A stretch of 24,548 nt of DNA, taken from positions 1-24,548 of the IMG/VR virus record IMGVR_UViG_3300031974_000276. The stretch is one strand, 5' to 3'. Position numbers and translations under genes: made by a program. Source of the stretch: a virus. The notes under the pieces are model-generated. The model was not told the origin of the DNA, made no database searches, and saw only the letters and a program-made list of their open reading frames with translations. Below are positions 7,790 to 22,079 of this stretch, piece after piece (positions within the stretch are counted from its first letter, which is position 1; each line of letters starts with the position of its first letter).

Positions 7790-8168
7790 TCTTCTCCTCA
7801 CTTTCGTAATATTCTTTGTATTTGTCTAACAAAGCATTTGTTTCTACTAGTTTGTTTCTAATCTGAGCAAAGTTCTTTGCTAATAATTCAAAGTCTTTAT
7901 CAGTTAATCCCCATAATACGGGGTCAATACCATCAGCCTCTAATTTTGCAAATACCTCAGCTGCATTTTCACTTGTAATAATATGCCATTGTATTTTTTC
8001 CATCTGTAATGGAGTTGGCTTTTCTAAATTTAATTGAGCTCTAGGTACTTCTTGTTTAAATATCTCTAGTTGTTTTACACTACCACAACCTGATAATAAT
8101 AAACACAGCATTAATGGTACTGCAATAATCCAAGCTAATCTATAAGTTCTATCTTTAGTATGGTACAT
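7782..8168 (-). CDS. Lipoprotein, probable outer-membrane spanin subunit (Rz1-like)
   Basis: 128 aa. A signal sequence with lipobox L-S-G-C (Cys28) predicts a lipoprotein of the outer membrane. The mature part is helical and ends in a charged stretch with K-Y-K-E-Y-Y. It overlaps the end of an inner-membrane coiled-coil gene by 14 bases, the classic arrangement of Rz/Rz1 spanin pairs that fuse the two membranes at lysis. At about 100 mature residues it is longer and less proline-rich than lambda Rz1, so the assignment rests mainly on topology and context. There is no Shine-Dalgarno, consistent with coupling to the upstream gene. A general phage lipoprotein is the alternative. Confidence 0.7.
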   Translation of the reverse strand: MYHTKDRTYRLAWIIAVPLMLCLLLSGCGSVKQLEIFKQEVPRAQLNLEKPTPLQMEKIQWHIITSENAAEVFAKLEADGIDPVLWGLTDKDFELLAKNFAQIRNKLVETNALLDKYKEYYESEEKND

Positions 8169-8625
8169 AATTAGGGTTTGCTATTGAAGGACACTCTGTA
8201 TTAATTTCAGATTTCTTCGTAGCATTAATCTCTTTCTCTGTCAATGGTGAACCACTAGCAATTTCAATACATCTGTTTGCTTTATCACTAGCAGAGTTGG
8301 TAATTCTTTCAATTGATTTAGTTCTTTCAATCGCAAGTAAACCAACGTCTCTGTTCTTTTTATTAAATCTTTTATCTAAATCGGCAAAATCTGTTTTTAA
8401 TTTACCAATTAATTCGTTCATTTCTTTGTTTGCCGTTAGTATGGCTTCAAAATCTTTTTTTTGGTTTTCTATGAGTTCTTTCTGCTCTGTGACGGCAGAT
8501 TCTAACTTGATTTGATTTGCTTTTAATGTAGCATTATCAGACCTTAATTTCATAACGTAGGCGCCGGCGCCGGCAAGGCCAGCAACCATTACACCTATCA
8601 TTATCATTCTCATAGAACCAAACAT
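8155..8625 (-). CDS. Probable inner-membrane spanin subunit (Rz-like)
   Basis: 156 aa. One N-terminal membrane helix (about 7-26) is followed by a long periplasmic coiled coil (30-110) and a Cys-containing C-terminal tail (Cys118, Cys149), the typical i-spanin shape. The motif R-C-I-E-I-A-S-G-S-P-L-T after the coil resembles what I recall from Rz-like proteins of other phages. The downstream gene overlaps it out of frame and encodes a lipoprotein, completing the pair. Upstream is a 34-aa one-helix membrane peptide. Expected to act last in lysis by bridging the inner and outer membranes, confirming a Gram-negative host. Confidence 0.7.
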   Translation of the reverse strand: MFGSMRMIMIGVMVAGLAGAGAYVMKLRSDNATLKANQIKLESAVTEQKELIENQKKDFEAILTANKEMNELIGKLKTDFADLDKRFNKKNRDVGLLAIERTKSIERITNSASDKANRCIEIASGSPLTEKEINATKKSEINTECPSIANPNYVPY

Positions 8626-9318: not shown

Positions 9319-9765
9319 TTAATCCTTACTTTTTTTATTTGTATCTATATATGTCTGGTAAATCTTATGAGCCTGACCTAGATTTTTTTTCTTTTCAGGA
9401 TCCTTTGCTCTTTCACTTGCAACCTTGGCTCTTTGCGACATTGCAATTGCAGCCTGCATTTTGTGAGCGTGTGTTTTACCAGAATTCTTAATCTTACTTA
9501 CAGATTTTCTAGCAGTTTCGCCATCTGTAAAACCTAAACCGTGTATTGTACCTTTAGGATTTTCGTCTGTATATAAATCAGAGTGTTTATCTGAACCTGC
9601 TTTTTGACCAGGTTTTCTAGGTATTCTTTTACTTGCATTAATACCTACACTCCTTTTTGTTTTATATTGAGCGCCTTTAGGTGGCGTATCACCTAAACTA
9701 GCAATGGGAGCTAAACTATTAACACCATTACTAAAGCCTGTTATATATTCTTTTAGAGTCTTCAT
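9319..9765 (-). CDS. Basic protein with DUF6321/DUF5872-like domain and capsid-targeting-like N-terminus
   Basis: 148 aa, very Lys/Arg-rich, no catalytic motif. The segment G-T-I-H-G-L-G-F-T-D-G-E-T-A followed by H-A-H-K-M-Q-A-A-I-A-M-S-Q-R-A matches my memory of a small domain (DUF6321 or DUF5872) common in large phages and viruses. The N-terminus MKTLKEYITGF resembles the T4 capsid-targeting sequence MKTYQEFIAEA. It overlaps the upstream gene by ATGA. A basic, possibly DNA-binding, internal head protein is the inferred role. Confidence 0.75.
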   Translation of the reverse strand: MKTLKEYITGFSNGVNSLAPIASLGDTPPKGAQYKTKRSVGINASKRIPRKPGQKAGSDKHSDLYTDENPKGTIHGLGFTDGETARKSVSKIKNSGKTHAHKMQAAIAMSQRAKVASERAKDPEKKKNLGQAHKIYQTYIDTNKKSKD

Positions 9766-10100
9766 ACTTTAGATTTTTCTCTAATCGTTTCTTTTACTTC
9801 AGGTTCTTCTATTCTTATTTCTTCTTTAACAATACCTGATAGTTCATCAACTTTTTCATCTAATTTATCTAGTGTATTTAAAACACCTTTTAAAACTACA
9901 TTATTGTTATCGTTATTTTCTTTTATCTTTGCACCAAACTTTTTCATAATAGTTCTTCGCAACACATCTTCAGCGTCATCTTTTTTCTTCTTCGCATTAG
10001 GGGCCATATCTACACCACCGTGTGCTACTGCGTTTGTTGGTGCCTCTTCATCCATCTTATTGATGATTTCATCCATCATTTCTTTATAGTGTTTGGGCAT
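9762..10100 (-). CDS. Small charged virion-type protein
   Basis: 112 aa, highly charged and helical. The ATG at 10100 has a clear GGAG ribosome-binding site seven bases away and overlaps the preceding gene by 17 bases. The segment E-E-A-P-T-N-A-V-A-H-G-G-V followed by a Lys run recalls a recurring element (A-P-T-N-x-V, then Lys) in head-associated proteins of marine T4-like phages. The C-terminal half (K-x-L-D-K-L-D-E-K-V-D-E-L) is a coiled coil. A scaffold or virion-internal role is possible; no enzyme motif is visible. Confidence 0.75.
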   Translation of the reverse strand: MPKHYKEMMDEIINKMDEEAPTNAVAHGGVDMAPNAKKKKDDAEDVLRRTIMKKFGAKIKENNDNNNVVLKGVLNTLDKLDEKVDELSGIVKEEIRIEEPEVKETIREKSKV

Positions 10101-10563
10101 ATTCTTTCTCCGATATTAGTTCGTCACCTCTTTCATAAACATCAATACCAAAACAAGTCATATACGGCTCTTGTTCTATATCCAATTCAGGTATTTCTCC
10201 TTCTTCGGATAACATTTCATCATATAAATTTTGTTCTTTTAAATATGTTATTATTGTTGATTCAAGAGTGTCTTTATATTGAGCATAACTCTTATCTTCT
10301 TTAATTAATAAAGCTAATGCAACTGCAAAAGAACCTAGTTTAGAACCTAGACCAACTCTTTTAAGTATTTTTTTGATATTAAATACAAATCTATGTAATA
10401 AAGTGTAGTGTCTTTTCTTACTACCTAATACATTTTTATATTTAATTAAAACCTTACCATCTTTGTCAATAATACCATTCTTAAATGCACCTGTTTTTTC
10501 AAACGGTGTAATAAGCATTTTGACAACACGATAAGTTATTAAAAAATCAATACCTCTAGCCAT
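10084..10563 (-). CDS. Conserved T4-like phage protein, unknown function
   Basis: 159 aa. The N-terminal half (start MARGIDFLITYRVVKMLITP, then E-K-T-G-A-F-K-N-G-I-I-D-K-D-G-K-V) resembles, from memory, a protein conserved across many T4-like marine phages and thought to be virion-associated. A helical middle (L-L-H-R-F-V-F-N-I-K-K-I-L) and an acidic C-terminus follow. It is coupled to the upstream gene by TAATG. No catalytic motif seen. Confidence 0.8.
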   Translation of the reverse strand: MARGIDFLITYRVVKMLITPFEKTGAFKNGIIDKDGKVLIKYKNVLGSKKRHYTLLHRFVFNIKKILKRVGLGSKLGSFAVALALLIKEDKSYAQYKDTLESTIITYLKEQNLYDEMLSEEGEIPELDIEQEPYMTCFGIDVYERGDELISEKEYAQTL

Positions 10564-10925
10564 TATAGTTCCTCTAACATCTTCTTAATGTTTTGGTCTT
10601 CTTTCTCCTCAACTAATTCGTGAGGGTAAAGGTAACCTAGATAACCACAAATAGTCTTTAGTATTGGCCAATAAACTTTATCTATTTTAAATAACAATAA
10701 AGTCATACAGGCGTCAGCACCAAAAACATTATGTAATAATATAATATGGTTTAATACTAATCTTATCTTTAAATCACCAGACGTTTCATATTTACGAAAC
10801 AATCTTTTAAGATATTTAAACCTTTTTACATCATCATCAAACTCTTGTTGTACTTCAAGAGTAGGGTTGTCATAATTATGCATAGCATATAACAACCAGT
10901 TTTGTTTGGTTATCGTATCAAACAT
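10563..10925 (-). CDS. DUF7207-like conserved phage protein
   Basis: 120 aa, all-helical, no enzyme motif. The central L-V-L-N-H-I-I-L-L-H-N-V-F-G-A-D-A and following L-L-L-F-K-I are the features I associate with a small family (DUF7207) found in many large tailed phages next to virion genes; the family number is from memory. The gene starts three bases after the stop of the 145-aa protein with only a poor ribosome-binding site, so translation may be coupled, and it ends in a TAATG overlap. Confidence 0.75.
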   Translation of the reverse strand: MFDTITKQNWLLYAMHNYDNPTLEVQQEFDDDVKRFKYLKRLFRKYETSGDLKIRLVLNHIILLHNVFGADACMTLLLFKIDKVYWPILKTICGYLGYLYPHELVEEKEDQNIKKMLEEL

Positions 10926-10928
10926 TAT

Positions 10929-11366
10929 TTACACTAATTTAGCGTAAACTTTAGACATTCCTGTTTTTAACGTTTCGTACTCTACTTGAAGTTTCAAACC
11001 ACCTTCTTTTTTATGAGAAATACCATCATCATTAATATCAGAACCATCTACGTCCTTACCAAATCTTCCTCCACCAAATTTTACTTCGGTTGTAAAGTTA
11101 CCTTTTTCACCAGTAGTTTCTTGAACAGGTACAAATAGACCTATTCTAGCTAAATTATTTCTTATTTCTTCAACAGCTGTTTGAGCAGACATATATTCTT
11201 TGCTCGCTGTTCCACCAAGAAATGCATTAACTCTTTTTAAAACTTCCGGGTCGTGTATGTTGTGAACACCAACAGAACCATCTTCAAAAGAAGCTGCGTC
11301 AGCTGTACCAACGTGGCCACCATCAAGACTTTCTTTGATGTTTATGTGTTGTTTAAAAGTTTTCAT
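10929..11366 (-). CDS. Candidate internal head protein with capsid-targeting-like N-terminus
   Basis: 145 aa, not assigned to a family. The N-terminus MKTFKQHINIKESLDGG matches the T4 capsid-targeting pattern (M-K-T-aromatic-x-x-x-I), and I-K-E before Ser13 would suit a gp21-type prohead protease, which cuts after [IL]-x-E. The rest is a compact mixed domain with a Gly-rich loop (F-G-G-G-R-F-G) and Asp-rich turn D-G-S-D-I-N-D-D-G. It overlaps the small gene upstream by one base (TAATG). A virion-internal or minor structural role is inferred. Confidence 0.75.
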   Translation of the reverse strand: MKTFKQHINIKESLDGGHVGTADAASFEDGSVGVHNIHDPEVLKRVNAFLGGTASKEYMSAQTAVEEIRNNLARIGLFVPVQETTGEKGNFTTEVKFGGGRFGKDVDGSDINDDGISHKKEGGLKLQVEYETLKTGMSKVYAKLV

Positions 11367-11521
11367 TACTCTTCTTCCTTGTTTTTTTCTTCTTTGTCTT
11401 CAGATTTTTTTTTAGTTTTCATACTAGCCATAGGTTTATTAGTACCAAGACCAGGACCTAAAATATCTTCCTCAAAGTCTTTCAAATTTTCATCTTCTAT
11501 AAAAGATTTAAATTTTTTCAT
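11366..11521 (-). CDS. 51-aa charged peptide with capsid-targeting-like N-terminus
   Basis: A short ORF of 51 codons overlaps its upstream neighbour by 14 bases and its downstream neighbour by one base (TAATG), leaving no gap. The product begins MKKFKSFIEDENLKDFEEDI, again M-K-x-aromatic-K-x-F-I-x-[ED], and ends in a highly charged tail of Lys and Glu. The N-terminus alone is nearly the complete T4-type capsid-targeting pattern. The tail resembles T4 small acidic/basic core proteins in composition only. The ribosome-binding site is weak (AAGAAG). Confidence 0.65.
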   Translation of the reverse strand: MKKFKSFIEDENLKDFEEDILGPGLGTNKPMASMKTKKKSEDKEEKNKEEE

Positions 11522-11735
11522 TTTTATTCTTCTTTACTTTTTTTAATACGACTTCTTTATTAGTTGCCATATTGATTAAGTTAGTAGAAAATTGTATTGC
11601 ACCATTTAAAGCATTTAAATTACTTTTCATAGTACCAACATCAATTTCTACTTTTTGAATCTTATCTTTCAACTCATTAAAGTCTTTAGTAAGTCGCTGT
11701 CTTTCATCTTGCAATTCTGCTAATGTTATATTCAT
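11508..11735 (-). CDS. Short coiled-coil protein
   Basis: 75 aa from the ATG at 11735, chosen because a GGAG ribosome-binding site lies seven bases upstream; a TTG four codons earlier is part of that site. The protein starts MNITLAELQDERQRLTKDFN, and is a continuous coiled coil for about 45 residues with a Lys-rich tail. It lies between the tail-fibre-like gene and the 51-aa gene in the late unit. No family recognised; chaperone or scaffold-like function is conceivable. Confidence 0.7.
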   Translation of the reverse strand: MNITLAELQDERQRLTKDFNELKDKIQKVEIDVGTMKSNLNALNGAIQFSTNLINMATNKEVVLKKVKKNKNEKI

Positions 11736-11755
11736 AATATTCTCCAATTAATAAA

Positions 11756-12214
11756 TTACGCTGTCGTACCAGTATTAGCTAAAATGTTCCAAGAACCGTT
11801 TTTAAAAAAACATACGGCAGTTTTACCTGCACCAGATAATACTATACTAGTATGACCTCGTAAGTTTGCCGGTGTAATTGTAGCATTGTTAGAACCAGTT
11901 GATGATGTATTCATAAAAATTTTGATTTGACCATCTGCACCATTAGCTAATGTAATAGTACCTGCTTGGTTTGTTGCGTTGATTTCAGTAACCGCCGAGG
12001 TAACATCAGCCGCTAAAACTGAAGAACCATCTAACGATAGTTGTTGTGAAGCTTGCTTCAATCCTAACCAAGTTGGTATGTTATTGAATATAGAAGCTGC
12101 ACTTACTTTTTTATTGATTGGTGTTCCAGTCGGGTCATCCACAATGTGGAATAAATCTACTGAAGCTAATGCGTTACCTAAATCGGTAAGCTGTGTGATT
12201 TTCTTATCTGCCAT
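11756..12214 (-). CDS. Virion/tail-fibre-like structural protein
   Basis: 152 aa from the ATG at 12214, which has an excellent AAAGGAG site; an in-frame ATG at 12265 would lie only about eight bases after the expected late transcription start. The N-terminus M-A-D-K-K-I-T-Q-L-T-D-L, then D-L-F-H-I-V-D-D-P-T-G-T-P-x-N-K-K-V, is the opening typical of fibre or structural proteins of marine T4-like phages. The remaining 100 residues are beta-rich with many Thr, Ser, Gly and Ala. First gene after the late promoter at 12280-12287. Could be a short fibre, decoration or tail adhesin component. Confidence 0.75.
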   Translation of the reverse strand: MADKKITQLTDLGNALASVDLFHIVDDPTGTPINKKVSAASIFNNIPTWLGLKQASQQLSLDGSSVLAADVTSAVTEINATNQAGTITLANGADGQIKIFMNTSSTGSNNATITPANLRGHTSIVLSGAGKTAVCFFKNGSWNILANTGTTA

Positions 12215-12279
12215 TTTTTCTCCTTTAAACCCTTTCGGGAATTCTACTTGCGCCAGTTGACGCAATCACTTTATTAATA

Positions 12280-12287
12280 TATTTATA
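12280..12287 (-). promoter_or_regulatory. T4-type late promoter (TATAAATA)
   Basis: Exact TATAAATA on the minus strand, 66 bases before the ATG at 12214 and only one base after the outer pair (12289) of the preceding terminator-like hairpin. It would drive the unit 12214-7084. Confidence 0.75.
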
Positions 12288-12288
12288 A

Positions 12289-12306
12289 AGGGGGCCGAAG
12301 CCCCCT
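12289..12306 (-). terminator. UUCG-loop hairpin after the 93-aa gene
   Basis: Read on the minus strand: A-GGGGGC-TTCG-GCCCCC-T, a perfect seven-pair stem with the very stable UUCG loop, 15 bases after the stop of the 93-aa gene. The T-run after it is short (TTTAT), because the next late promoter begins there, so termination may be partial; it could also act as an RNA 3'-end stabiliser, as in T4. Confidence 0.75.
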
Positions 12307-12320
12307 CTAATTAGTTATTA

Positions 12321-12602
12321 TTAAGCGGCGTTAGTTAAAACTGATAAAGTCTCGTATTGTACTCTACCATTTCTACCACCTGAACCAGTAATTTTTAAGT
12401 TCCAACCTGCGTGGCCAGCACCTGCTGGTACTTCGCCATCTGCATAGTTAAATAAACCCAATGTGACACCTGTAATAAAGTTGTCAGCAGTTGCGTCTTC
12501 AAATAAGTTAGTTCTATTTGCACTTGTTGGTGCTAGTTTAGCAGCGGCACAAGCCCATAAAGGTGCTCCTGCAGCTGAATCTGCGCTAGTTTGCATAGAC
12601 AT
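12321..12602 (-). CDS. Small virion protein, probably abundant (decoration-like)
   Basis: 93 aa. The sequence A-A-G-A-P-L-W-A followed by N-F-I-T-G-V-T-L-G-L-F and G-H-A-G-W-N-L-K-I-T-G-S-G-G-R-N-G-R-V-Q-Y-E resembles a small structural protein found in many marine T4-like phages; the family is known to me only as uncharacterised virion-type. It stands alone between its own late promoter (12655-12662) and a UUCG hairpin, the layout of a protein needed in large amounts. GGGAG lies eight bases before the ATG. A capsid decoration or tail-surface protein is inferred; it is not related visibly to T4 Hoc or Soc. Confidence 0.8.
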   Translation of the reverse strand: MSMQTSADSAAGAPLWACAAAKLAPTSANRTNLFEDATADNFITGVTLGLFNYADGEVPAGAGHAGWNLKITGSGGRNGRVQYETLSVLTNAA

Positions 12603-12654
12603 AGTATTCTCTCCCTTTGTTAAATTTAGGTACTCAATTCTTAATATGTACCAC

Positions 12655-12662
12655 TATTTATA
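12655..12662 (-). promoter_or_regulatory. T4-type late promoter (TATAAATA)
   Basis: Exact TATAAATA on the minus strand, 53 bases before the ATG of the 93-aa virion protein, in the short gap after the deoxyribonucleotidase gene. Confidence 0.75.
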
Positions 12663-12668
12663 AGGGAT

Positions 12669-13151
12669 TTAATCTTCTAGGAGTTTTTTGAGAAGTCTGA
12701 TAGTTCTTGAAGTATCACCATTATGGACAACACCTTGTCCACCTTTAGCTCTAAATTCATTAACGTTTTTAGGATAATCGTCTATCAGTATTGAATTCTT
12801 ATCTGCGTATTGTTGTTTTTGTACACGCTTAACAAGATTAATTCTATTAGAGGCAATGCCAAGATTTTTGGTTGCCCAATATTTTTTACCAGGTACACAA
12901 TTCTTATCGTAAGTATCCTCTACGTAAGCTGATAAAATTTCTGTATTATATTTTTTTAGGAAGTTCCAGAGTTGTTTGCCGCCTTTATGCCAAGGTAATG
13001 TAGACCAAAAATCTGGTTTACTTTTGATAGCACCCCATTTTTCAGACTTACTGCCTTGAGCCCAAACGTCAATCTTCTTGCCGGTAAGTGTTTCAGCACC
13101 TTTTACAAAGTCGCATAGTACACCATCCATATCGCAATAGATTTTTTTCAT
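12669..13151 (-). CDS. HAD-type 5'(3')-deoxyribonucleotidase
   Basis: 160 aa, the usual length of the NT5C family. The nucleophile motif D-x-D-G-V-L-x-D-F is at residues 7-15 (Asp7, Asp9), motif II Ser74 in E-I-L-S-A, and the metal-binding pair Asp124-Asp125 in S-I-L-I-D-D-Y-P. Such enzymes dephosphorylate deoxyribonucleoside monophosphates and in phages are thought to balance nucleotide pools. It is separated by about 60 bases from the gene upstream, without a late-type motif, and has an AAAGGA ribosome-binding site, so it may have its own earlier promoter; none is convincing. It splits two late units, and fits functionally with nrdA and the adenylate kinase. Confidence 0.85.
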   Translation of the reverse strand: MKKIYCDMDGVLCDFVKGAETLTGKKIDVWAQGSKSEKWGAIKSKPDFWSTLPWHKGGKQLWNFLKKYNTEILSAYVEDTYDKNCVPGKKYWATKNLGIASNRINLVKRVQKQQYADKNSILIDDYPKNVNEFRAKGGQGVVHNGDTSRTIRLLKKLLED

Positions 13152-13211
13152 AGTGTTTGTCCTTTCATACTAGTATAATAACACATCCAATATAAAAGGC
13201 AAGCGTTAATT

Positions 13212-13484
13212 TTACTTATTATACGTGATTTTTGGCTCGGTATCAACTTTAGTTTTAGTTTCACCAGACATTGTTTTGCCTTTGCCCTCTGATTCTTTTT
13301 TATACTTTGAGTCCATCTTATTGAAAAAATCTTTTTTCTCTTGGTCAGACATTGAAGCCAGACCTTTACCAGTTTTTTCTAATTCTTTTTTGAACATTTG
13401 TTGGTAAGCAGAATCATTAATATATTTTGTAAGGTCTTTAGTTGCTTCCTCTAAACTACCTGATTTTGAATTAAAATATCCCAT
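13212..13484 (-). CDS. Small Lys-rich module protein
   Basis: 90 aa, about a quarter Lys plus Glu. The segment A-Y-Q-Q-M-F-K-K-E-L followed by S-M-S-D-Q-E-K-K-D-F-F-N-K-M-D matches a small helical module that, from memory, recurs as a free protein or as part of larger head-associated proteins in marine T4-like phages. Tail is low-complexity. It is coupled by TAATG to the 587-aa gene, has an AAAAGGA site, and ends the unit that starts at 20536. No enzyme function is visible. Confidence 0.75.
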   Translation of the reverse strand: MGYFNSKSGSLEEATKDLTKYINDSAYQQMFKKELEKTGKGLASMSDQEKKDFFNKMDSKYKKESEGKGKTMSGETKTKVDTEPKITYNK

Positions 13485-15247
13485 TATTTTCCTTTTACTT
13501 GTTTTGCTAAATCTTTATCTGCACCACCCCAAGTACCACTTGATTTGGTTACAAAAGAATTAACTCTTGCGAAAGCCCATTGTTGTTGAGTAGCACCTGG
13601 TCTGTGGCCACCTCGCCAAGCTGCCATACCTCTATCGTAAACTTTTTTAAGAATACCATAAGGCATTCCTGATTTCTCAGCCTTATTTTTTAAACCTGCA
13701 ATTTGTTCAAAGACTGCCCTAGCTGGGTGTTCTTCGTTCTTCATTTTAGGTTTCATACCTTGTTTTTTTAATCTGTCTATATCTGCAACAGCAGGAGCAT
13801 TTTCAGCTTTTACGGTTGCACCATAATAGTTTTTAAGGTCAATAGCATACTTGTTTAAGTCTGCACCTTTACCATCAATTTTCATTACAAGACCTTTAGC
13901 GTCAATTGTAAAACCGTGTTTTGCTAAATCAGTTGAAGCCTTTGCCATCTTATCGTGTGTTTTAAAAGTAGCTGTCATCTTCTTCATTTCTTCTAATGAT
14001 TCAGGTACACAATTAGGTACTTTCTTACCACCCTTATCTTTTAAACCGACTTGTTTGTATCCTGTCCAACAAGCTTCAAACATTTCTTCATCCATTTCTT
14101 CACCGAATTGAATATTTTTTACCGTAAATTTCATATTTCTTACTGCAAGTTTACTTCTTGAACCACTTGAAATAAAAGGTATGTTTTCTTTACCTAATTT
14201 TTGTAGGTCTGCTTCTTTAAATTTATCAAGAATATTCATAAGTTGTTTTGCTCTAGCAGCTGTAATCTTTTTATTTCTAAAAGGTTCGTATTCTTTTTTA
14301 AGAGTTGCAATCATTTGAGGTGTAATACCTGCTTCTTGTAAATCAACTTCTTCTTTCATTTTAGAAAGTTTATCACCAATTTCGTGGCCTTTTTTGATAG
14401 TTTTCTTATCTAAAGGTGGCTCATCATTGTATTTCTTTTTTGCAACTGACATACCAATAGCATATGCTTTACCATTTGGCATTTCAACTTTTAAACTTTC
14501 TTCAACTTTATTTTCTGATTTTTCTTTTTCTCTTTTCATCTTATCTTTAAGATGTTTATATGCAATACCAACTTGTAATAATGGTTCACCTGTTTCTGGA
14601 TTTACCATTTTCTGTGTATCTTTTTGAACAGCTTTACTTTTTTCTAAATCAATTTTTTGTTTTAGAACATTAATTTGGTCATCTTTCTTTTCAACATCAG
14701 CTTTTAATTTTTCTGTATCGTCTGACTTTTCTTTTTTATCTTCTTTTTTATCTGTTTCAACAGGCACATCATTGTCAGGTGCTACATCTGTTTTTTCTTT
14801 TTTCTTTACAGCTTCTTCCCAAGTCTCAACGGTTTCTTTAATCTTATCTGTCTTAGCTTTTGCTTGAGCGTCTTGCATATCTTGAGCAGAATCACCATCT
14901 GATTCACCTAGAATTGCTTTTACCGTTTTTACATCTATGCCTAATTCTTTTGCAATCTTAGCCGCTGACGCACCTTGTTTTCTCATTGCGTCTATATCTG
15001 ACATTCTACCTTCAACTAAATCTGATAGTTGATTAATACCTGCGTGTTTGATTGCTAGTTGTGTAGGGACATCCATATTTGCAATCATTTTTTTGACTGC
15101 TGGTGTCACATCTGATTTTGTTTTATGTTTCCATAAATTTTTAATGTTCTTAATTTGTGTATCATTCAGTCTTGATTGTAAGTAACCAACTTCATTTAAG
15201 TTTACTTCAGCCATTGCTTCTGATATTGTTTTTCTATATCTACTCAT
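13484..15247 (-). CDS. Large Lys-rich mosaic protein, probable head-internal/scaffold-like
   Basis: 587 aa, no catalytic motif. Apparent modules: N-terminal helical domain with a helix-turn-helix-like stretch (about 86-112); charged coiled coil (130-250); an A-G-I-T-P-Q-M-I-A-T-L module (306-365); C-W-T-G-Y-K-Q-V-G-L ... P-N-C-V-P-E (393-416); a helical part with K-H-G-F-T-I-D-A-K-G-L (443-453); and a C-terminal domain (S-G-M-P-Y-G-I-L-K-K-V-Y-D-R-G, R-V-N-S-F, T-W-G-G-A-D-K-D-L) recalling the DUF5824 type. Several [IL]-x-E sites lie near module borders: ISE/A (10), LNE/V (19), LGE/S (115), LQE/A (305), as a prohead protease would need. Coupled by TAATG on both sides. Packaged core protein is inferred. 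Confidence 0.8.
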   Translation of the reverse strand: MSRYRKTISEAMAEVNLNEVGYLQSRLNDTQIKNIKNLWKHKTKSDVTPAVKKMIANMDVPTQLAIKHAGINQLSDLVEGRMSDIDAMRKQGASAAKIAKELGIDVKTVKAILGESDGDSAQDMQDAQAKAKTDKIKETVETWEEAVKKKEKTDVAPDNDVPVETDKKEDKKEKSDDTEKLKADVEKKDDQINVLKQKIDLEKSKAVQKDTQKMVNPETGEPLLQVGIAYKHLKDKMKREKEKSENKVEESLKVEMPNGKAYAIGMSVAKKKYNDEPPLDKKTIKKGHEIGDKLSKMKEEVDLQEAGITPQMIATLKKEYEPFRNKKITAARAKQLMNILDKFKEADLQKLGKENIPFISSGSRSKLAVRNMKFTVKNIQFGEEMDEEMFEACWTGYKQVGLKDKGGKKVPNCVPESLEEMKKMTATFKTHDKMAKASTDLAKHGFTIDAKGLVMKIDGKGADLNKYAIDLKNYYGATVKAENAPAVADIDRLKKQGMKPKMKNEEHPARAVFEQIAGLKNKAEKSGMPYGILKKVYDRGMAAWRGGHRPGATQQQWAFARVNSFVTKSSGTWGGADKDLAKQVKGK

Positions 15248-15597
15248 TAGTTATTTACCTTTGCTCCTGCTCTCCATTGATAACAAGACCAATATCGTGC
15301 TTTCCATTTAGGACCTGGATTATCACAATTGTGCCTTGCTCTAAACGATTTACGTCTAGCTGGGTCGTCTCTTTTAATACTTAAACCTGTTGTGTCACCA
15401 AACGATACTTTAACTACATTACCTTTTTCGTTCTTAACATAAACATAAAACTTCTTACTACCACCACGAATTGGGTCATTAAGTTTGACCTTTTTGCCTT
15501 GATATTCAGACTCTTGTAAAGGTTCGTGTTCGTGTTCAAAAATACACTCATCACATTCTTTATCGTAGTTTTCAAATTCTTTTAATGTTTTTACCAT
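15247..15597 (-). CDS. Cys-containing conserved domain protein
   Basis: 116 aa. The N-terminal 35 residues are acidic with C-D-E-C and H-E-H-E-P, possibly metal-binding. The C-terminal 75 residues are a basic domain with K-K-F-Y-V-Y-V-K, V-K-V-S-F-G-D, D-D-P-A-R-R-K-S-F-R-A-R-H-N-C-D-N-P-G-P and W-S-C-Y-Q-W. I recognise this as a domain widespread in marine T4-like phage genomes beside or fused to head maturation genes, without a known activity. N-terminus M-V-K-T-L-K-E-F-E-N loosely fits the capsid-targeting pattern. TAATG overlaps at both ends. Confidence 0.8.
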   Translation of the reverse strand: MVKTLKEFENYDKECDECIFEHEHEPLQESEYQGKKVKLNDPIRGGSKKFYVYVKNEKGNVVKVSFGDTTGLSIKRDDPARRKSFRARHNCDNPGPKWKARYWSCYQWRAGAKVNN

Positions 15598-17894
15598 TAG
15601 ACTTTCTCTATCATTTTAGCAACAGCCTCTTTTAGCTTTGCTTCCCATTGTTCTTTATAACGTTCCCTATATTTATTCATTGTGGACTCTGTAGCTGCCC
15701 ATTCTTTTATGTCTTTTTCAGTAGGGCTATCTGTTTCTCTTTCTAGGAAACCTTTGATTTTCTTCTTAACTGCCATATCACCACTACCTGGTTGTGACGG
15801 TTTGTATGTGGGATTTTCATATCCTGCATAGTCTGGTTCACCTGGTGTTATGGTTGATGTATGTTTAGCGTAGTCGTTACCAATGTCTGTCGCCTCTTTA
15901 ATCTTTGAAACGAGGTCTTTTCGTAATTCTCCAAACATTTTTTTATATTTCTGCGTGTGTTTAGATGGTTTAGTTTTAGCTGTCTTATCTCCAGGTGCTG
16001 GAGTGTTGTCATTCTTGGTTGTGTCTTTGCCTTTAAAATGGCCAGCTCGTTTATCTTTAACATCTTTTTTTAGTCCACTATAATACTTTTTAGGTTGTGT
16101 TCCTTCTTTATCTTTCACGTCTTTATCTTGAGCCAATCTATCAGTATGTGCTTTAGAAGCCTCTGATACTGCCTCAAATCCATAGTCAACGTCTAGGTTA
16201 TATTCCCTCACGTCTACCTCTCTATCTGCCGATACAGGTACACAATCCCATATCCAAGCTTTATGTAAATTATTTTTATCGTCTTCTAATACGACATAAT
16301 TAGTACCTTTTCTTTTTACGATACCTTGTATATCTTCTTTGACATAATCAACTTTGTCGCCAATGTTAAATATCATTTCTCTAATATATAAATCTCTAAT
16401 TTGTTGGTGTTCAAAGTCTTTAAATGGTACAACTTCTTTAGTCTCGCCTGTGTATTGAGCGGCTAAATTCATACCTTGTCTTACTTGTTTCATTATAGCA
16501 TTTGCGTCAACACCTCTTGGTAGTCCTCTTTTAAAACTAGCAATATCGTTGCTTGAAGCAGCTGCTCTCATTTTACTTGCTGACATACCTGATACGTTAT
16601 CGGCATCGGGGTCTCTTTCGCCAGCAGATACAACATCAATATTATCAAAGTTATAATAACCGTGTCTTGATTTTACATCATTATACTTTTTAATTATTGT
16701 ATCAAATTCTCTAACTCTATCACTACCTACAACCATAGTTATATCACTATAACCTTTTTTGTAAAGTAATGTACAAATATCTAATATCATATTTGTATTG
16801 TTAACTTCTATATTTCTTGCGTGTCTAGGAAACATCTTTTTCATTATGTCTAGTTTTTGTCTAGGCGATAATGGATTCTTTTTAGGGTCCTGACTTCTAC
16901 TTAAATAAATTCTGTAATCGTTTGACCTAATACTTGCCACTTTATTAATTAACTTTTCGTGGCCAGTTGTAGGTGGATTAAATCTACCAAAACTAAATGC
17001 GATTGACTTGCCTTTAGCTTCGTGCATTTCTAAATCATCTATCTCTTTATCGGTAACTTTACCGTCATCTAAAATCTTTTTACATTTTTTATAGAAGTTT
17101 AAATAGTGATACTTTTCTAACATTTTATAGATAACATTTTTAGGCAATCTATTCTTAATACCAAACTTTTGTATTTGGTCTGGTGTCATATCTGAATCAA
17201 AAGCAGCTCTTCTATCTGCGTCAACACCATCACCTACTTTAATAATGGCTTTGATACTATCTTCTATTTCTTCTAATTTATCGTTAATTCTATCTTGTAA
17301 ATTTAAAATATCATTAGGTTCTAATTCTTCTAATTCTCTGTAATCAATAATGTCTCTTTTTAATTCACCTTTGATAACATCTAACTCTTGTACTTTTTTC
17401 TCAAAATCTTTTAAGTATAAACTAGGGTCAAATGTAAAATCGTCAGGTCTTTTTATAAACTTATTACCCTCAATATCAAATACAGCGTCAGCCTTTTTGT
17501 TTTGGTCTTCGTATGTTTCTTTATCTGTAATAAAATAATAATTAATTGGGTGTTCAGAACCAGGTATTAATTTACCTTGAATATTATCTGGATTACTAGC
17601 AGACAAATACTTTTTAGATAATCTTGTTCTTTCTTCTTCTTGTTTATCAGCAGGCACATCAAACAATACATTAAGGTCTAGGTCTGCGTCATTTCTATAT
17701 CTCTTTGTAAGAATAGAACCGATAAGAGAAACTTTTAAAACAGGATACTCACTTTCAAATTCTTCTAGTTGTTTATTGATTAATACAACAACACTAGGTT
17801 TGATTTTAGGATTAGGAGTATCAGCGTCATCAAACACAGCCTTAGCATATGTTCTTCTTGGTATATCTATGATACTTTCTTTAAACGTTTTCAT
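15597..17894 (-). CDS. Double nucleotidyltransferase: pol-beta type plus HIGH-superfamily domains
   Basis: 765 aa from the ATG at 17894, which overlaps the kinase stop as ATGA; a longer frame starting 33 bases earlier is less likely. N-terminal region 30-130 resembles a pol-beta-type nucleotidyltransferase (L-I-G-S at 57-60; D-A-D-L-D-L-N-V with Asp71/Asp73). Residues 295-470 form a HIGH-superfamily cytidylyl/NMN-adenylyl-type domain: G-R-F-N-P-P-T-T-G-H (TTGH instead of HxGH, ending His312), V-V-G-S-D-R, and S-G-M-S-A-S-K-M-R (435-443). An SH3/KOW-like segment follows (509-552), then a basic low-complexity tail (P-A-P-G-D-K-T-A-K-T-K-P-S-K-H-T). N-terminus MKTFKESIIDI is capsid-targeting-like. 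Substrates cannot be told; NAD precursors, tRNA ends or proteins are options. Confidence 0.8.
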   Translation of the reverse strand: MKTFKESIIDIPRRTYAKAVFDDADTPNPKIKPSVVVLINKQLEEFESEYPVLKVSLIGSILTKRYRNDADLDLNVLFDVPADKQEEERTRLSKKYLSASNPDNIQGKLIPGSEHPINYYFITDKETYEDQNKKADAVFDIEGNKFIKRPDDFTFDPSLYLKDFEKKVQELDVIKGELKRDIIDYRELEELEPNDILNLQDRINDKLEEIEDSIKAIIKVGDGVDADRRAAFDSDMTPDQIQKFGIKNRLPKNVIYKMLEKYHYLNFYKKCKKILDDGKVTDKEIDDLEMHEAKGKSIAFSFGRFNPPTTGHEKLINKVASIRSNDYRIYLSRSQDPKKNPLSPRQKLDIMKKMFPRHARNIEVNNTNMILDICTLLYKKGYSDITMVVGSDRVREFDTIIKKYNDVKSRHGYYNFDNIDVVSAGERDPDADNVSGMSASKMRAAASSNDIASFKRGLPRGVDANAIMKQVRQGMNLAAQYTGETKEVVPFKDFEHQQIRDLYIREMIFNIGDKVDYVKEDIQGIVKRKGTNYVVLEDDKNNLHKAWIWDCVPVSADREVDVREYNLDVDYGFEAVSEASKAHTDRLAQDKDVKDKEGTQPKKYYSGLKKDVKDKRAGHFKGKDTTKNDNTPAPGDKTAKTKPSKHTQKYKKMFGELRKDLVSKIKEATDIGNDYAKHTSTITPGEPDYAGYENPTYKPSQPGSGDMAVKKKIKGFLERETDSPTEKDIKEWAATESTMNKYRERYKEQWEAKLKEAVAKMIEKV

Positions 17895-18583
17895 CTTCTT
17901 CTTAATTTTCTTTCCGTAGCCATCCATCTTTTTGCTGTGTATGACTTAATTTTATTTGACAATAAACTTCTTACGGCTTTACCTACTTTATTCATTACAA
18001 CGGTTGTAAGTTCTTTATCATCTTTACTATTATCTACAATCACCATATTACCCATACCAAATAAATTTTGAAATCTACCAATATTAGCTTGTACGCCTTC
18101 CCAAGATTTTCTTGTAATATATTCTGGTACACTTCTTTCTCTTTTAGAGTTTCTTTCTAATGCCACATCTAAACTAGTATTAACAAATATCATATAACAA
18201 TCATAACCTAATTGTCTCAATTGTGCTGTTTGACTTTTAATCTTATCATAATCTCTACCAGTACCATCAACAACCATACCTAATCTGCCTTTGATAGATA
18301 AGTCCATTATATTACCTGTTGTTGCCTTTGCTCTGGCTCTTACTATATCTCTTGCCTCTGCCTCATCTTCAGGCATTTTTAGTGAAAGATTATTTTTCTT
18401 TAATGCAACTTCAAAAGCATTATCAGAGTTAATCATTCTTAAACCTGTGCCACCAAATGCACTTCTGGTTACAAATGTTTTACCAGAACCTGGACCACCT
18501 GCAAGAAAAAATGCCTTAAAAATATTAGGGTCATATAAACCCTCATTTAATTCTGTATATTTTATGTCGTTAAATGTTTTCAT
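17891..18583 (-). CDS. P-loop kinase, zeta-toxin/polynucleotide-kinase-like
   Basis: 230 aa. Walker A is A-G-G-P-G-S-G-K-T (28-36). A catalytic Asp54 sits in I-N-S-D, Walker B-like Asp106 in V-V-D-G-T-G-R-D, and an Arg-rich lid in E-R-N-S-K-R-E-R-S-V-P (143-153). This order fits the zeta-toxin/T4 Pnk branch that phosphorylates nucleic acid ends or small sugars and nucleotides; which one is not visible. N-terminus MKTFNDIKYTELNEG is capsid-targeting-like with L-N-E before Gly15 as a possible protease site. ATGA overlaps link it to the adenylate kinase upstream and the double nucleotidyltransferase downstream, so the three are made together. Confidence 0.85.
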   Translation of the reverse strand: MKTFNDIKYTELNEGLYDPNIFKAFFLAGGPGSGKTFVTRSAFGGTGLRMINSDNAFEVALKKNNLSLKMPEDEAEARDIVRARAKATTGNIMDLSIKGRLGMVVDGTGRDYDKIKSQTAQLRQLGYDCYMIFVNTSLDVALERNSKRERSVPEYITRKSWEGVQANIGRFQNLFGMGNMVIVDNSKDDKELTTVVMNKVGKAVRSLLSNKIKSYTAKRWMATERKLRRR

Positions 18584-19161
18584 CTTTCTATTCTTTTTAT
18601 AATTTTATTTGCAATAACTTCAGGCTCTGCACCCTCAGCCTTTATATTTATTAATTGTTCATCAAAATGTTTAATAACTGGACCAACTTGTTTTTCGTGT
18701 TCTCGTAATCTTTGTTTAATAACCTCTGGTTTATCATCTGCTCTACCTCTGGCCGTCAATCTTTTAATTACTTCTTGTTCAGATACTTGTAAGTTAATAA
18801 TAAAATTATGTTCTATATTATTTTTATCCATTGCTCTTACTTGTTCCATACTTCTAGGAAAACCATCAAATACATATCCGTTTCTTGCGTCTGGTTTTTT
18901 AAGTCTGTCCATAACTTCTCTCATAACAATCTCTGTCGGAGCAAACTTACCATTCGCTAATAATTCTTTTACTCTTTTACCATCTGGCGTATCTTTCTTT
19001 GCCAAGTCTCTCATCATATCACCAGTATAAATGTGTGGTATATCAAAATGCTTTGTAATATATTTTGAGTAAGTTGATTTACCCGAACCTGGTCCACCTA
19101 TCATTATAATCTGCCAAGGTCCACCTTTTATTTCTCTTAAAAATCTTTCTACAAATTTCAC
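18580..19161 (-). CDS. adk: Adenylate kinase (NMP kinase) with extended N-terminus
   Basis: 193 aa, typical of the short-lid adenylate kinases. P-loop G-G-P-G-S-G-K-S (22-29), NMP-binding T-G-D-M-M-R-D (46-52), signature V-F-D-G-F-P-R (97-103) and short lid G-R-A-D-D-K-P-E (139-146). It interconverts AMP and ATP to ADP; other NMPs may be substrates. The start is a GTG at 19161 within a GTGA overlap with the 53-aa gene. The catalytic fold normally begins close to the P-loop strand, but here about 16 residues precede it, MKFVERFLREIKGG, resembling M-K-T-Y-Q-E-F-I-A-E of T4 internal proteins, with L-R-E before Ile11. This is a rare phage-encoded adk, presumably maintaining nucleotide pools. Confidence 0.88.
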   Translation of the reverse strand: MKFVERFLREIKGGPWQIIMIGGPGSGKSTYSKYITKHFDIPHIYTGDMMRDLAKKDTPDGKRVKELLANGKFAPTEIVMREVMDRLKKPDARNGYVFDGFPRSMEQVRAMDKNNIEHNFIINLQVSEQEVIKRLTARGRADDKPEVIKQRLREHEKQVGPVIKHFDEQLINIKAEGAEPEVIANKIIKRIER

Positions 19162-19319
19162 TTTCTATATCCTGTGCCTTTATCTCTGTTGCCCCATCTT
19201 TTTTGCCAAGCCCAAACACTCATTCTACCACCTATGCTTTCACATATTGAATAGTATTTGTCTAAAACACCAATCATTTTACTTTTAATTAAATCAATTG
19301 TATCTGGTATTGTTCTCAT
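19158..19319 (-). CDS. 53-aa hypothetical protein
   Basis: A complete short frame fills the gap between two genes: ATG at 19319 in a TAATG overlap with the ligase-like gene, TGA at 19160-19158 overlapping the GTG of the adenylate kinase. The product starts M-R-T-I-P-D-T-I-D-L-I and ends in a Trp-rich, basic segment S-V-W-A-W-Q-K-R-W-G-N-R-D-K-G. The Trp/Arg-rich end could bind nucleic acid or a protein partner. No homologue recognised with confidence. Confidence 0.6.
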   Translation of the reverse strand: MRTIPDTIDLIKSKMIGVLDKYYSICESIGGRMSVWAWQKRWGNRDKGTGYRK

Positions 19320-20536
19320 TAATTCCATCCTTTTGGCATTGTAAAGTTTTGCCTGCTAAATTCTAATCTATCTACAAGTTTAACTGCACCTGCAACTCTA
19401 TCAACGGCCACATATCCTTCAGGAGCGGTTACTCTATAACCACTTGAAGTTCTAACAAAGTGACCTATACTTTGAATTTGATTCATCTTTCTTAATAAAG
19501 TATTTTTAGCATTTGCTAAAGTAATATGACTTGCAATCGCAAAGTATAATGCTGTTCTATTTCTTTTAATAAAATCCATACCTTCTTTTTTTGCTTTTTG
19601 GTATGGTGCTTTACCTCTATCAGTTTTCTTACTATCAATTTCTTTATCTAATACGTTTTCGTAATATGTTTCAAATCTTTTTTGCATATCTCTTACACCA
19701 CCCATATTACCTTGCGTTGTTTTGATAAAGTGATTAAAGAAAGTTTTTAATCTAAAGCCAACCGTGTTAGTGTCTTGACTTGTTTTAGACATTTCATTTA
19801 ACATAGGAGCTGCTTTAGATAAAGAGCCTTCAGCCATTCTTATTTGTGCGTCAAAAGCTTTTAGTTCATTAGCATTAAACATAACTGAACCTGACTTATC
19901 TGTATATTGAGCAGACGCTAAAAATATATTTGAACCACCATTACCTCTAACGGTACCAAAACCTGCTGATAAACTTTTCATATTTTTACCAGTATAAGAT
20001 GTATGAAATACAATACCCATTTTGGCTCTAGCAATTTGTCTACCTATGCTACTATTTACCGGTACTGCATATGTAATTGTATTAGGTGTAAATGAAAGCA
20101 TTTTTTCGCCATCAATATTTACTACTTTTAAATCGTCTGTAAATAATAGGTCACCTTGCAAGATACCTTTGATTGGTAATTTTTTAAGATAATTAAAACA
20201 ATATGAAAGTTTTTGAGCTGCACCACCTGTGCCGTGATTTTTTTTAATATCTGATATTGAATAATTGATTTTAGGTGTGACGTTGAATACTGATTTAGTA
20301 CCAACAAAGAATTTTCCGTTTTCTGGATTTTGACCACATATAATAGCAGGCGCACCGTCCCATTTAACGGTCATATTAACTGCACCTTTGGCATTACCAG
20401 CCAACATATTTCTAACTGATTTTAGAAAGCTTATTGCATTATCACCACCTTTGGCACCGTTATTGATAATATCATCTTCTAGGTGTTCAAGGTGTGTGTT
20501 TTTGTCCTGTGTAAAGAAACCTTTAAAACTAAACAT
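19319..20536 (-). CDS. Ligase-like covalent nucleotidyltransferase (DUF6267-like)
   Basis: 405 aa. V-K-W-D-G-A-P-A-I (57-65) matches motif I (KxDGxP) of the DNA/RNA ligase and mRNA-capping superfamily, with Lys58 as the would-be AMP/GMP-accepting residue. Then come F-F-V-G-T-K (77-82), G-I-L-Q-G-D-L-L-F-T (124-133, motif III-like) and K-M-G-I-V-F-H (172-178, motif IV-like but lacking the usual acidic residue). The second half is helical and unassigned. From memory such proteins are called DUF6267 in cyanophages, with H-L-E-H-L-E-D as an N-terminal hallmark, present here (15-21). GGAG ribosome-binding site; exact late promoter 60 bases upstream. Could seal RNA or DNA, or attach a nucleotide to protein. 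Confidence 0.75.
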   Translation of the reverse strand: MFSFKGFFTQDKNTHLEHLEDDIINNGAKGGDNAISFLKSVRNMLAGNAKGAVNMTVKWDGAPAIICGQNPENGKFFVGTKSVFNVTPKINYSISDIKKNHGTGGAAQKLSYCFNYLKKLPIKGILQGDLLFTDDLKVVNIDGEKMLSFTPNTITYAVPVNSSIGRQIARAKMGIVFHTSYTGKNMKSLSAGFGTVRGNGGSNIFLASAQYTDKSGSVMFNANELKAFDAQIRMAEGSLSKAAPMLNEMSKTSQDTNTVGFRLKTFFNHFIKTTQGNMGGVRDMQKRFETYYENVLDKEIDSKKTDRGKAPYQKAKKEGMDFIKRNRTALYFAIASHITLANAKNTLLRKMNQIQSIGHFVRTSSGYRVTAPEGYVAVDRVAGAVKLVDRLEFSRQNFTMPKGWN

Positions 20537-20595: not shown

Positions 20596-20603
20596 TATTT
20601 ATA
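20596..20603 (-). promoter_or_regulatory. T4-type late promoter (TATAAATA)
   Basis: Exact TATAAATA on the minus strand, 60 bases before the ATG of the ligase-like gene, in the 67-base gap after the 491-aa gene. It would drive the entire coupled unit down to 13212. Confidence 0.75.
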
Positions 20604-22079
20604 CTATGAAACCTTTAGAAAAAAGGTAGAAATATCCGTATTTGACATAGCATATCTAACAATCTGTCTTGAAAATTCATCAAGTTTTTTACCTTTTCTA
20701 TCGGCTTCAACTGCCTCTAAAAAAAGTAAACCCATATACTTACCAAAATAAAAAGCTTTACTTTTGTTTTGGCCTCTTTGTGTATATTCATCTGCGTTCT
20801 TTTTAAATATGTCTTTAGCTACCACGTCTTGTTTATTAGTACCAGGTTTTTGTTTGTTTATAAATCTGATATATAAATTGTAAAAGTTATCAAGGTTAAT
20901 TTCCTTATAGTAAGTCTCTCTATAAGTTGATTGATTACTTCTATGACCAATGGTTCTGTTAAAATTCTTTTCTACATAATGATTGACAACACCACCACCT
21001 ATTTTACCAGCAGCTGCATATTTGCCTTTCATTTCACCTTGCCAAGATTTAATTGTTTCCATAGCTCTTAATTGCATTTGACCACCATCACTAAAATGTA
21101 GGTAAACATCTGCTGAATTAAAAAAATCTCCTGTCTGACCAAAAGTAAAACCAGCAAATTTTGTATCGGCATTATGAGTTCTTTTCCTAGTATTAAATGG
21201 TGTTACCGTTGCTTGTGAACCACCGACTTTTTTTAAAGATATGCCTAAAGTATGTTCATCAACTTTATCTCTAACTGCTTCTCTTAATTCTGTCCATTCT
21301 ACTGGTAAAGTTTTTTCATCTTTAGAAAATGGTAATTTACTAGTAGGTTGTTTTGTACTCATCCATATATCTCCTGGATTCCACTTATCATCATTAAAAG
21401 AACCAGGTGCTATAGGTGGATTATTAACTTTCTTATCGTAATCTTGAGCTTTCTTTTTATTATCATAAACAGCTTTCATAAAAGGAGACCCTCTATGAAA
21501 ATAAACTTTTTTATTTTTAAAAACTTTTACATACTGCGAATTATAAATTGCATTGGCAGACTTTATAAAAACATCTGTTTTAAACCAATCTTCAGGACAT
21601 TTTTCGTATAAATCTTCAATTTTGTTTCTTTGAGATTTATCATAAGTAAAACAATAATCGTGTTGTTTTTTTAGTGCTTTTATATCTGTATTTTGATTAG
21701 TTAATTTAGTAGCACCAGTATTAAAAAGTATAGATAGAAAATAACATTGTAATGATTCAGTTATAGCCGTGTCGCTTGCACCACCACCTGAACCTTTACC
21801 ACCACCAAAATCGGGGTCTTTGAAAAATTTAGAAACTAAATCTCTACCTGTTTCAGTTCTTCCTGATTTACTATTAGAATATACAATAGTGTATTTGCCT
21901 TTATCGTCTTTGAGTAATTTTAAACCATAGACTTTTCTACCATTAGCATTTTGACCTAGTATAAATTCTTTTTTATCTCTGACTTTACATTCAAAAATGC
22001 TTACATAATCCTTACCTTTATAAGGACCACCGCTGGCTGTGTACTTGTCTTTAAATCTACTAGCTGATAATTGACCCAT
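20604..22079 (-). CDS. Conserved hypothetical protein, 491 aa
   Basis: No family recognised with confidence. A N-terminal domain (1-90) is followed by a Gly-rich linker (92-101) and a helical stretch with T-E-S-L-Q-C-Y-F-L (107-115). Later come W-N-P-G-D-I-W-M (233-240) and G-I-S-L-K-K-V-G-G-S (279-288). The spaced E108, D237 and S-L-K (281-283) with Lys283 resemble the layout of PD-(D/E)XK nucleases, but Glu of the ExK pair is Ser here, so this is only a suggestion. Ribosome-binding site GGGAG, spacing seven. A GATAAATA late-type site lies 19 bases upstream of the ATG. Similar size and style as the next gene, which suggests a partner role. Confidence 0.75.
   Translation of the reverse strand: MGQLSASRFKDKYTASGGPYKGKDYVSIFECKVRDKKEFILGQNANGRKVYGLKLLKDDKGKYTIVYSNSKSGRTETGRDLVSKFFKDPDFGGGKGSGGGASDTAITESLQCYFLSILFNTGATKLTNQNTDIKALKKQHDYCFTYDKSQRNKIEDLYEKCPEDWFKTDVFIKSANAIYNSQYVKVFKNKKVYFHRGSPFMKAVYDNKKKAQDYDKKVNNPPIAPGSFNDDKWNPGDIWMSTKQPTSKLPFSKDEKTLPVEWTELREAVRDKVDEHTLGISLKKVGGSQATVTPFNTRKRTHNADTKFAGFTFGQTGDFFNSADVYLHFSDGGQMQLRAMETIKSWQGEMKGKYAAAGKIGGGVVNHYVEKNFNRTIGHRSNQSTYRETYYKEINLDNFYNLYIRFINKQKPGTNKQDVVAKDIFKKNADEYTQRGQNKSKAFYFGKYMGLLFLEAVEADRKGKKLDEFSRQIVRYAMSNTDISTFFLKVS

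Follow-up and report, generated by a model that had tools for sequence, protein, structure and literature searches.

A recurrent T4-like leader on late-expressed enzymes of a pelagimyophage-like virus as a probable capsid-targeting sequence

Why should otherwise unrelated proteins, encoded side by side in one late block of a T4-like virus, begin with variants of the same short peptide? The question is raised by IMG/VR virus record IMGVR_UViG_3300031974_000276, the whole of which (24.5 kb, hereafter the window) was analysed and which holds no head genes. Window genes are named by their start coordinate, and all those carrying the peptide lie on the minus strand. We consider it very probable that we are dealing with a capsid-targeting sequence (CTS) of the T4 type, by which enzymes expressed late are brought into the prohead and later injected: not every ortholog has the peptide, the domains behind it are unrelated, it is found at the starts of genes, it ends in a conserved site, and it is carried by relatives detected in published virion proteomes. 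For the phage of the window itself, packaging and cleavage are predicted from sequence.

The resemblance between these N-termini is real in statistical terms. A first-pass annotation of this DNA had reported nine such peptides, and all nine were found on the minus strand where it had placed them; with an additional gene, 10100, the short leader is common to ten otherwise unrelated window proteins. The same annotation had taken MKTYQEFIAEA as the tag shared by the T4 internal proteins, which is correct for IPII and IPIII but not for IPI (MKTFKEFTSTTT) or Alt (MELITELFDED) of T4 (AF158101), and the window copies are at least as close to IPI as to IPII/III. When N-termini were scored with BLOSUM62 against the T4 internal-protein peptides, using permutation of residues 2-16 as the null, 8 of the 34 window genes scored at least 16 versus 0.24 expected (0/300 permutations), all eight within 9319-20536; the resemblance to the T4 peptides is far beyond chance. 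A profile trained on IMG/VR orthologs, each gene's own family being left out, singled out 9765, 11366, 11521, 15597 and 17894 individually (P 0.0005-0.0045), gave marginal values for 20536 and 10100 (0.03) and was not significant for 18583 and 19161 taken alone (0.17). Scanning related phages with a motif model, a check that had been proposed for the original observation, revealed enrichment at gene starts: in 399 related loci a profile score of 8 was exceeded by 12.9% of 4,971 gene starts versus 0.30% of 20,288 internal methionines, a 43-fold difference. The gene-start rate is inflated, since homology to tagged genes was what brought these loci into the set and they also served to train the profile. 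The location of the leader at gene starts is explained by neither. Equal frequency of the peptide in early genes, which would have spoken against a virion role, was not observed: five of the six best-scoring of the 198 genes of Pelagibacter phage HTVC008M sit in the same late block (P=6e-5), and in the window neither the replication genes nor the nucleotide-reductase genes carry the peptide.

At the upper end of the tagged region, MFSFKGFFTQD (20504..20536) opens a DUF6267 protein (19319-20536), MKFVERFLRE-I (19129..19161) an adenylate kinase with a GTG start (18580-19161), MKTFNDIKYTELNE-G (18542..18583) a zeta-toxin/AAA_33-like kinase (17891-18583) and MKTFKE-SIIDI (17862..17894) a protein combining nucleotidyltransferase and NMNAT/cytidylyltransferase domains (15597-17894). 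The start of the latter is an internal ATG in a longer open reading frame opening at 17927; this start codon overlaps the stop codon of the preceding gene (end 17891), and MKTFKE is found at this place in most orthologs. Next come a 116-aa protein (15247-15597) beginning (M)VKTLKEFEN (15568..15597; orthologs MKTFKEYEN, MKTFKEFEN) and a 587-aa DUF5824 protein (13484-15247) beginning MSRYRKTISE-A (15215..15247; orthologs TMSE-A, TFRE-A, TMAE-A). Four small products complete the set, namely a 51-aa lysine/glutamate-rich one (11366-11521) with MKKFKSFIEDE (11489..11521), a 145-aa protein (10929-11366) with MKTFKQHINIKE (11331..11366), a 112-aa protein (9762-10100) with MPKHYKEMMDEI (10065..10100; orthologs MKSFKEIAQDI, MKTFKEVAEDI) and a 148-aa phrog_727-like protein (9319-9765) with MKTLKEYITGF (9733..9765; orthologs MKSLKEYITGF, MTKTFKEYLGGF). 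In the AlphaFold2 model of the DUF6267 protein, of predicted local distance difference test score (pLDDT) 80, leader residues 1-12 are disordered and outside the fold. The 11366 protein consists of leader, hypervariable linker and conserved domain; its residues 8-32 are likewise predicted to be disordered (pLDDT <50), and the model is too weak (pLDDT 64) for a fold call.

Comparison of hundreds of IMG/VR orthologs (loci L006-L416) suggests that the peptide behaves as a removable leader, optional, of variable length and with a fixed hydrophobic-x-E end. That end follows the T4 prohead-protease rule, while the rest of the leader varies. Most adenylate kinase orthologs begin MKSFKQYFFEA-INGPKIIMIGGPGSGK, and 8 of 77 have no extension and start near MNIILIGGPGSGK; DUF6267 proteins carry MFSFKGFFTQDKNTHLEH in window-type phages and begin M(A/S)KNTHLEH, without leader, in cyanophage-like contigs. 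The kinase family has [LI]-x-E directly before G[LV]YD in 116/116 orthologs, with 7 to 32 leader residues up to the site and x being Q, K, R, E, N, T, A or M. Among NMNAT orthologs 128/131 leaders end in E, nearly always as hydrophobic-x-E, before [SA]IIDIPR, and 117/140 members of the 11366 family combine I/L/V/M at residue 8 with E at residue 10. Heterozygosity within the leader is about five times higher at third codon positions (0.32-0.35) than at second positions (0.06-0.07), which shows that selection acts on the amino acids. No leader was found in families 9317, 10563, 10925 and 13484 of the same operons, nor in the helicase and primase families.

Ten N-terminal residues are sufficient in T4 IPIII, positions 4 and 7 governing targeting and 8 and 10 processing, and D at position 10 blocks cutting but not targeting (PMC9026906). 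Residue 4 is F/L/Y in most window copies; residue 7 is F/Y, with an aliphatic residue or F at 8, in 9765, 11521 and 20536, and H, S or another residue elsewhere. Hydrophobic or aromatic residues at 4 and 7 are also present in proteins of the cyanophages S-CREM2, S-SCSM1 and S-CRM01 and of Methylophilales phage Melnitz. The first-pass annotation had attributed cleavage sites to several window copies; hydrophobic-x-E is kept in the ortholog families, but in the window itself the sites are shifted or have D or G at position 10.

A suitable enzyme is encoded by the relatives, since a T4-type prohead protease is annotated in HTVC008M and in the cyanophages S-SZBM1, S-CREM2 and S-SCSM1. The N-terminal region of the major capsid protein contains ILTEA in S-SZBM1, LLTEA in S-CREM2 and FLAEA in S-SCSM1, as compared to FLTEA in T4 gp23, and the HTVC008M capsid protein has AFLGEIA in the corresponding region. 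Leader ends resemble these sites, as exemplified by FLTEA in the S-CREM2 NMNAT, and a single prohead protease would presumably cut both leaders and capsid protein. The gp21 proteases of HTVC008M, S-SZBM1, S-CREM2 and S-SCSM1 themselves begin MKLI[TR]E, like T4 Alt, a likeness which suggests that the marine protease may use an Alt-type targeting leader.

Late expression, also claimed for the tagged units at the outset, is consistent with the promoter-like sequences of the window. Intergenic copies of TATAAATA lie upstream of the DUF6267-adk-kinase-NMNAT-DUF5824 unit (20596..20603, minus strand), of gene 12602 (12655..12662, minus strand), of the unit with 11521, 11366, 10100 and 9765 (12280..12287, minus strand) and of 6987 (7058 and 7071, coding strand), as T4-type late promoters would. 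Their total number is no more than chance (6 versus 4.9 expected) and only the intergenic placement is informative: five of the six exact sites fall in the 3.1% of bases that are intergenic, all on the coding strand.

The link to virions comes from three cyanophages with published virion proteomes, S-CREM2, S-SCSM1 and S-SZBM1, to which we applied a rule with positions taken from T4 genetics (hydrophobic 4, aromatic 7, aliphatic/F 8, E10). S-CREM2 has six matches versus 0.08 expected by permutation, and five of them are among its 52 virion-detected proteins, with a P value (0.003) to be read cautiously because the rule was written after the S-CREM2 N-termini had been seen. The five are the SAM lyase gp6 (MKDFDSFLEE), gp13 (MKDLHSFLTE), the APH-like kinase gp14 (MKRFDAFLTEE), gp136 (MQTFSMFFSE) and the NMNAT/cytidylyltransferase gp154 (MKNFSSFLTEA). 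When the core motif was allowed anywhere within the first 32 residues and the three proteomes were pooled, 8 of 14 motif proteins were virion-detected versus 122 of 703 others (P=0.001). Residues 2-32 hold 14 occurrences of this motif, residues 33-63 a single one. Orthologs of the NMNAT protein 17894 were detected in virions of all three phages, the S-SCSM1 one beginning MKSFLQFLKEA and the S-SZBM1 NMNAT/cytidylyltransferase MRFRQFIIEA, and NMNAT-like proteins have been reported in S-SM1 and S-CBWM1 virions as well. Furthermore, the S-SCSM1 record labels seven genes of the gp41-gp61 interval as virion proteins (89-93, 95, 97), and S-CRM01 has a run of leaders in the same interval (genes 131-126), where a kinase beginning MISFDQFLSE is reported in virions. 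The S-CREM2 virion protein gp12 (L090:7704-10313), annotated as Cas9-like, has LRFASFMAEAA at about residues 17-27, and S-CRM01 gene 128 (L417:14422-14973) has LSLDSFIKEAA at a similar place; a Pfam search found no known domain in either protein.

Several observations weigh against reading the peptide as a CTS. No window copy has an aromatic residue 7 together with E10 in exact T4 register, and the strict rule for residues 4, 7, 8 and E10 matches nothing in the window or in HTVC008M. D10, which in T4 targets without cutting, is found in 17894 and 11521, both of which also carry E elsewhere in the leader. On the proteomic side, S-SCSM1 alone is not significant (one of two rule matches detected) and the window-family profile shows no association with virion detection in S-SZBM1, where only the NMNAT is detected and leaders 191 and 192 are not; significance therefore rests on S-CREM2 and the pooled test. 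The textbook leaders SSZBM1_191, SSZBM1_192 and SSCSM1_30 belong to small proteins undetected in virions in shallow data, and the interval virion proteins SSCSM1_90 and SSZBM1_139 carry no leader, so the leader is not the sole route into the particle. The authors of the S-CREM2 and S-SCSM1 proteomes themselves allow for carry-over. Finally, all proteomes behind the link are from cyanophages, a set to which the phage of the window and the pelagimyophages do not belong; it reaches the ortholog of 17894, and orthologs of 9765, 11366, 11521, 15597, 18583 and 19161 lie outside it. SSZBM1_191 (L088) and SSCSM1_30 (L421) are related to each other (MKSFKSFLSESVNISGDFNGNL / MKTFKQFMSESVNISGDFNGNL), have perfect leaders and lie beside virion genes.

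The setting of the tagged genes is that of a Kyanoviridae, pelagimyophage-type T4-like phage. The window has the gene order uvsX, gp41 helicase, late block, gp61 primase, nrdA, which is identical in HTVC008M, and the gp41-gp61 interval is also recognisable in Melnitz and in cyanophages S-SZBM1, S-CRM01 and S-SCSM1, all Kyanoviridae; most block genes have orthologs in HTVC008M, Melnitz and the cyanophage relatives. Tagged genes occupy the middle of the block, whose recognisable products are DUF6267, adenylate kinase, the zeta-toxin/AAA_33-like kinase, the nucleotidyltransferase with NMNAT/cytidylyltransferase, and DUF5824. The adk gene of pelagimyophages was described earlier as an auxiliary metabolic gene (PMC7029224), and our search for this adenylate kinase among isolate phages returned no T4-like marine relatives. 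Pieces of the proteins 13484-15247, 15247-15597 and 15597-17894 are fused into a single protein in Melnitz_18 and, in part, in HTVC008M (107221), a case of domain shuffling; DUF6267 and NMNAT both match phrog_455, in adjacent parts. Motifs invariant in 45 diverse DUF6267 orthologs, KWDG (58-61), QGD (127-129), EG-V-A (373-377) and K-V (386-388), are reminiscent of motifs I, III, IV and V of ATP/NAD-dependent ligases, and a Foldseek search against PDB gave nothing significant, with ligase adenylation domains appearing only at E about 1.

Other genes of the window complete the picture. A 491-aa protein without leader (20604..22079, minus strand; phrog_1462) lies in the same block, and its distant ortholog SSCSM1_90 (28% identity, E 4e-18) is labelled a virion protein, which may indicate a second route into the particle within this block. 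The NT5C-like 5'-nucleotidase (12669-13151) begins at its domain without extension, and its orthologs in HTVC008M (111128-111718) and Melnitz (Melnitz_22) have N-terminal extensions, MKYSAFKAETLNLHLVQE and MKSIVEVTSINEEE respectively, another optional leader. Two adjacent genes, 4328-6151 and 6214-6987, code for S/T/N-rich sequences with apparent secretion signal peptides; lysis-like membrane/coiled-coil and lipoprotein genes (7304-8625) lie immediately upstream.

If the peptide is indeed a CTS, tagged proteins would be made late in infection and dock on the prohead scaffold core through the hydrophobic or aromatic residues at about positions 4 and 7. Once the shell has closed, the prohead protease would cut after the glutamate of hydrophobic-x-E, and the mature protein, freed into the head and retained there, would be injected with the DNA. 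The cargo of the window comprises the adenylate kinase, the nucleotidyltransferase-NMNAT, the zeta-toxin-like kinase, the DUF6267 and DUF5824 proteins and several small proteins, and after injection such a set may provide a head start by holding NAD+ and nucleotide pools or by blocking host defence, as the analogy with T4 Alt and the internal proteins suggests. It is no more than a reasonable guess that NMNAT, adenylate kinase and nucleotidase together counteract NAD+ or nucleotide depletion. In T4, Alt modifies RNA polymerase and IPI-IPIII inhibit type IV restriction (PMC12373910), and phage NAD+ salvage enzymes have been proposed as a counter to NADase effectors (PMC9503650). Whether abundant T4-like phages of the ocean use their gp41-gp61 interval as a general cassette for protein injection, with swappable CTSs before enzymes, is in our opinion an evenly balanced matter. 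Were it so, a ready-made set of NMNAT, adenylate kinase, 5'-nucleotidase, zeta-like kinase, SAM lyase, protein kinase and nuclease would enter with the DNA, genes such as the pelagimyophage adk would be virion-borne first-strike effectors and not plain auxiliary metabolic genes, and NAD+- or nucleotide-depleting defences, as well as restriction, would be plausible targets.

Other explanations of the shared peptide were weighed against this reading. The leader could act in head assembly only, the tagged proteins being scaffold or core components in morphogenesis instead of injected effectors; T4 IPIII does affect head morphogenesis (PMC9026906), and tagged genes adjoin virion structural genes in S-SCSM1. 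We find this unlikely, as the cargo includes enzyme families (adenylate kinase, NMNAT, SAM lyase, kinases) whose make-up changes from phage to phage, which would not be expected of essential core proteins, and adenylate kinase also exists without leader. Slightly less credible is an amphipathic leader unrelated to virions, by which proteins would dock within the infected cell, for instance at a replication or membrane complex. Its short F-x-x-F pattern and the location of several nucleotide enzymes beside replication genes would fit, but the replication genes themselves lack the peptide, tagged relatives are present in virions, and the conserved hydrophobic-x-E end agrees both with the rule for the prohead protease and with the sites in the capsid proteins.

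That virion detections reflect carry-over of abundant late proteins, the leader similarity being a separate coincidence, was raised for the detections by the authors of the S-CREM2 and S-SCSM1 studies and gains from the uneven sensitivity of proteomes; given that detection correlates with the leader, both in one phage and in the pooled test, and that the same orthologs recur in independently purified phages, we judge it highly improbable. Hardly any weight can be given to a translation-start or codon effect (ATG AAA ACN TTT AAA) devoid of function at the protein level. In AT-rich genomes such as this one AAA is frequent as the second codon, yet the contrast between third and second codon positions already contradicts such an origin, four neighbouring families of the same operons lack the peptide, and a similar one occurs in the GC-richer S-CREM2 (47.9% G+C, PMC10665884).

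The signal itself is already known from T-even coliphages and, by analogy, from giant phages. What is new is its occurrence in this phage group, at this locus and on enzymes as cargo, together with its link to virion proteomes; the accessible text of the open-access literature searched contained no mention of such leaders for cyanophages or pelagiphages. Cyanophage proteomics has repeatedly found NMNAT and kinases in virions, leaving open packaging versus contamination, and a T4-type leader with a protease site offers both a mechanism and a sequence test for these detections. From the leader one can predict the packaged proteins and their cutting sites, and also which of the 'auxiliary metabolic genes' would be active at time zero rather than after expression. 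By extending the T-even coliphage signal to abundant marine phages, it also makes it possible to search the genomes of uncultured viruses for injected effectors.

Among known systems, the closest is the CTS of T4 IPI, IPII and IPIII, MKTYQEFIAE-A (Mullaney and Black 1996, summarised in PMC9026906). Both comprise the N-terminal 10-20 residues of unrelated proteins, with hydrophobic residues at 4, 7 and 8 and E at about 10 followed by A/S/G, a pattern kept in tagged relatives and less regularly in the window; relatives of the window phage encode the same type of prohead protease, and tagged relatives are found in virions. The marine leaders differ in occurring in Kyanoviridae/pelagimyophage-type phages, in the gp41-gp61 interval and not at ip loci as in T-even phages, on metabolic enzymes as well as on small proteins, and in their residues: Y or H is frequent at position 7, F or M is frequent before x-E, and the position of the glutamate can shift (E6-E14). 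T4 Alt, a packaged ADP-ribosyltransferase, is likewise an injected head enzyme with a short N-terminal propeptide, but of another leader family and with other enzyme activities; the Alt-type leader (M[EK]LITE) was considered as part of the same signal and rejected, Alt scoring below background with the profile. Proteins that leave the particle with the DNA also bear leaders or domains in the case of the giant-phage SPN3US ejection proteins, which have propeptides, and of the polyvalent injected proteins. A protease processes those of SPN3US, whose propeptides are mostly much longer than T4 CTSs, several exceeding 100 residues (PMC5694885). Finally, the NMNAT/cytidylyltransferase and kinases reported in virions of cyanophages S-SM1, S-SCSM1, S-SZBM1, S-CREM2 and S-CRM01 include an NMNAT orthologous to the 17894 domain and, in several of these phages, are encoded by tagged genes at the same locus with T4-like leaders; they differ in serving phages of cyanobacterial hosts, with SAM lyase, Cas9-like and APH-like cargo in place of adenylate kinase.

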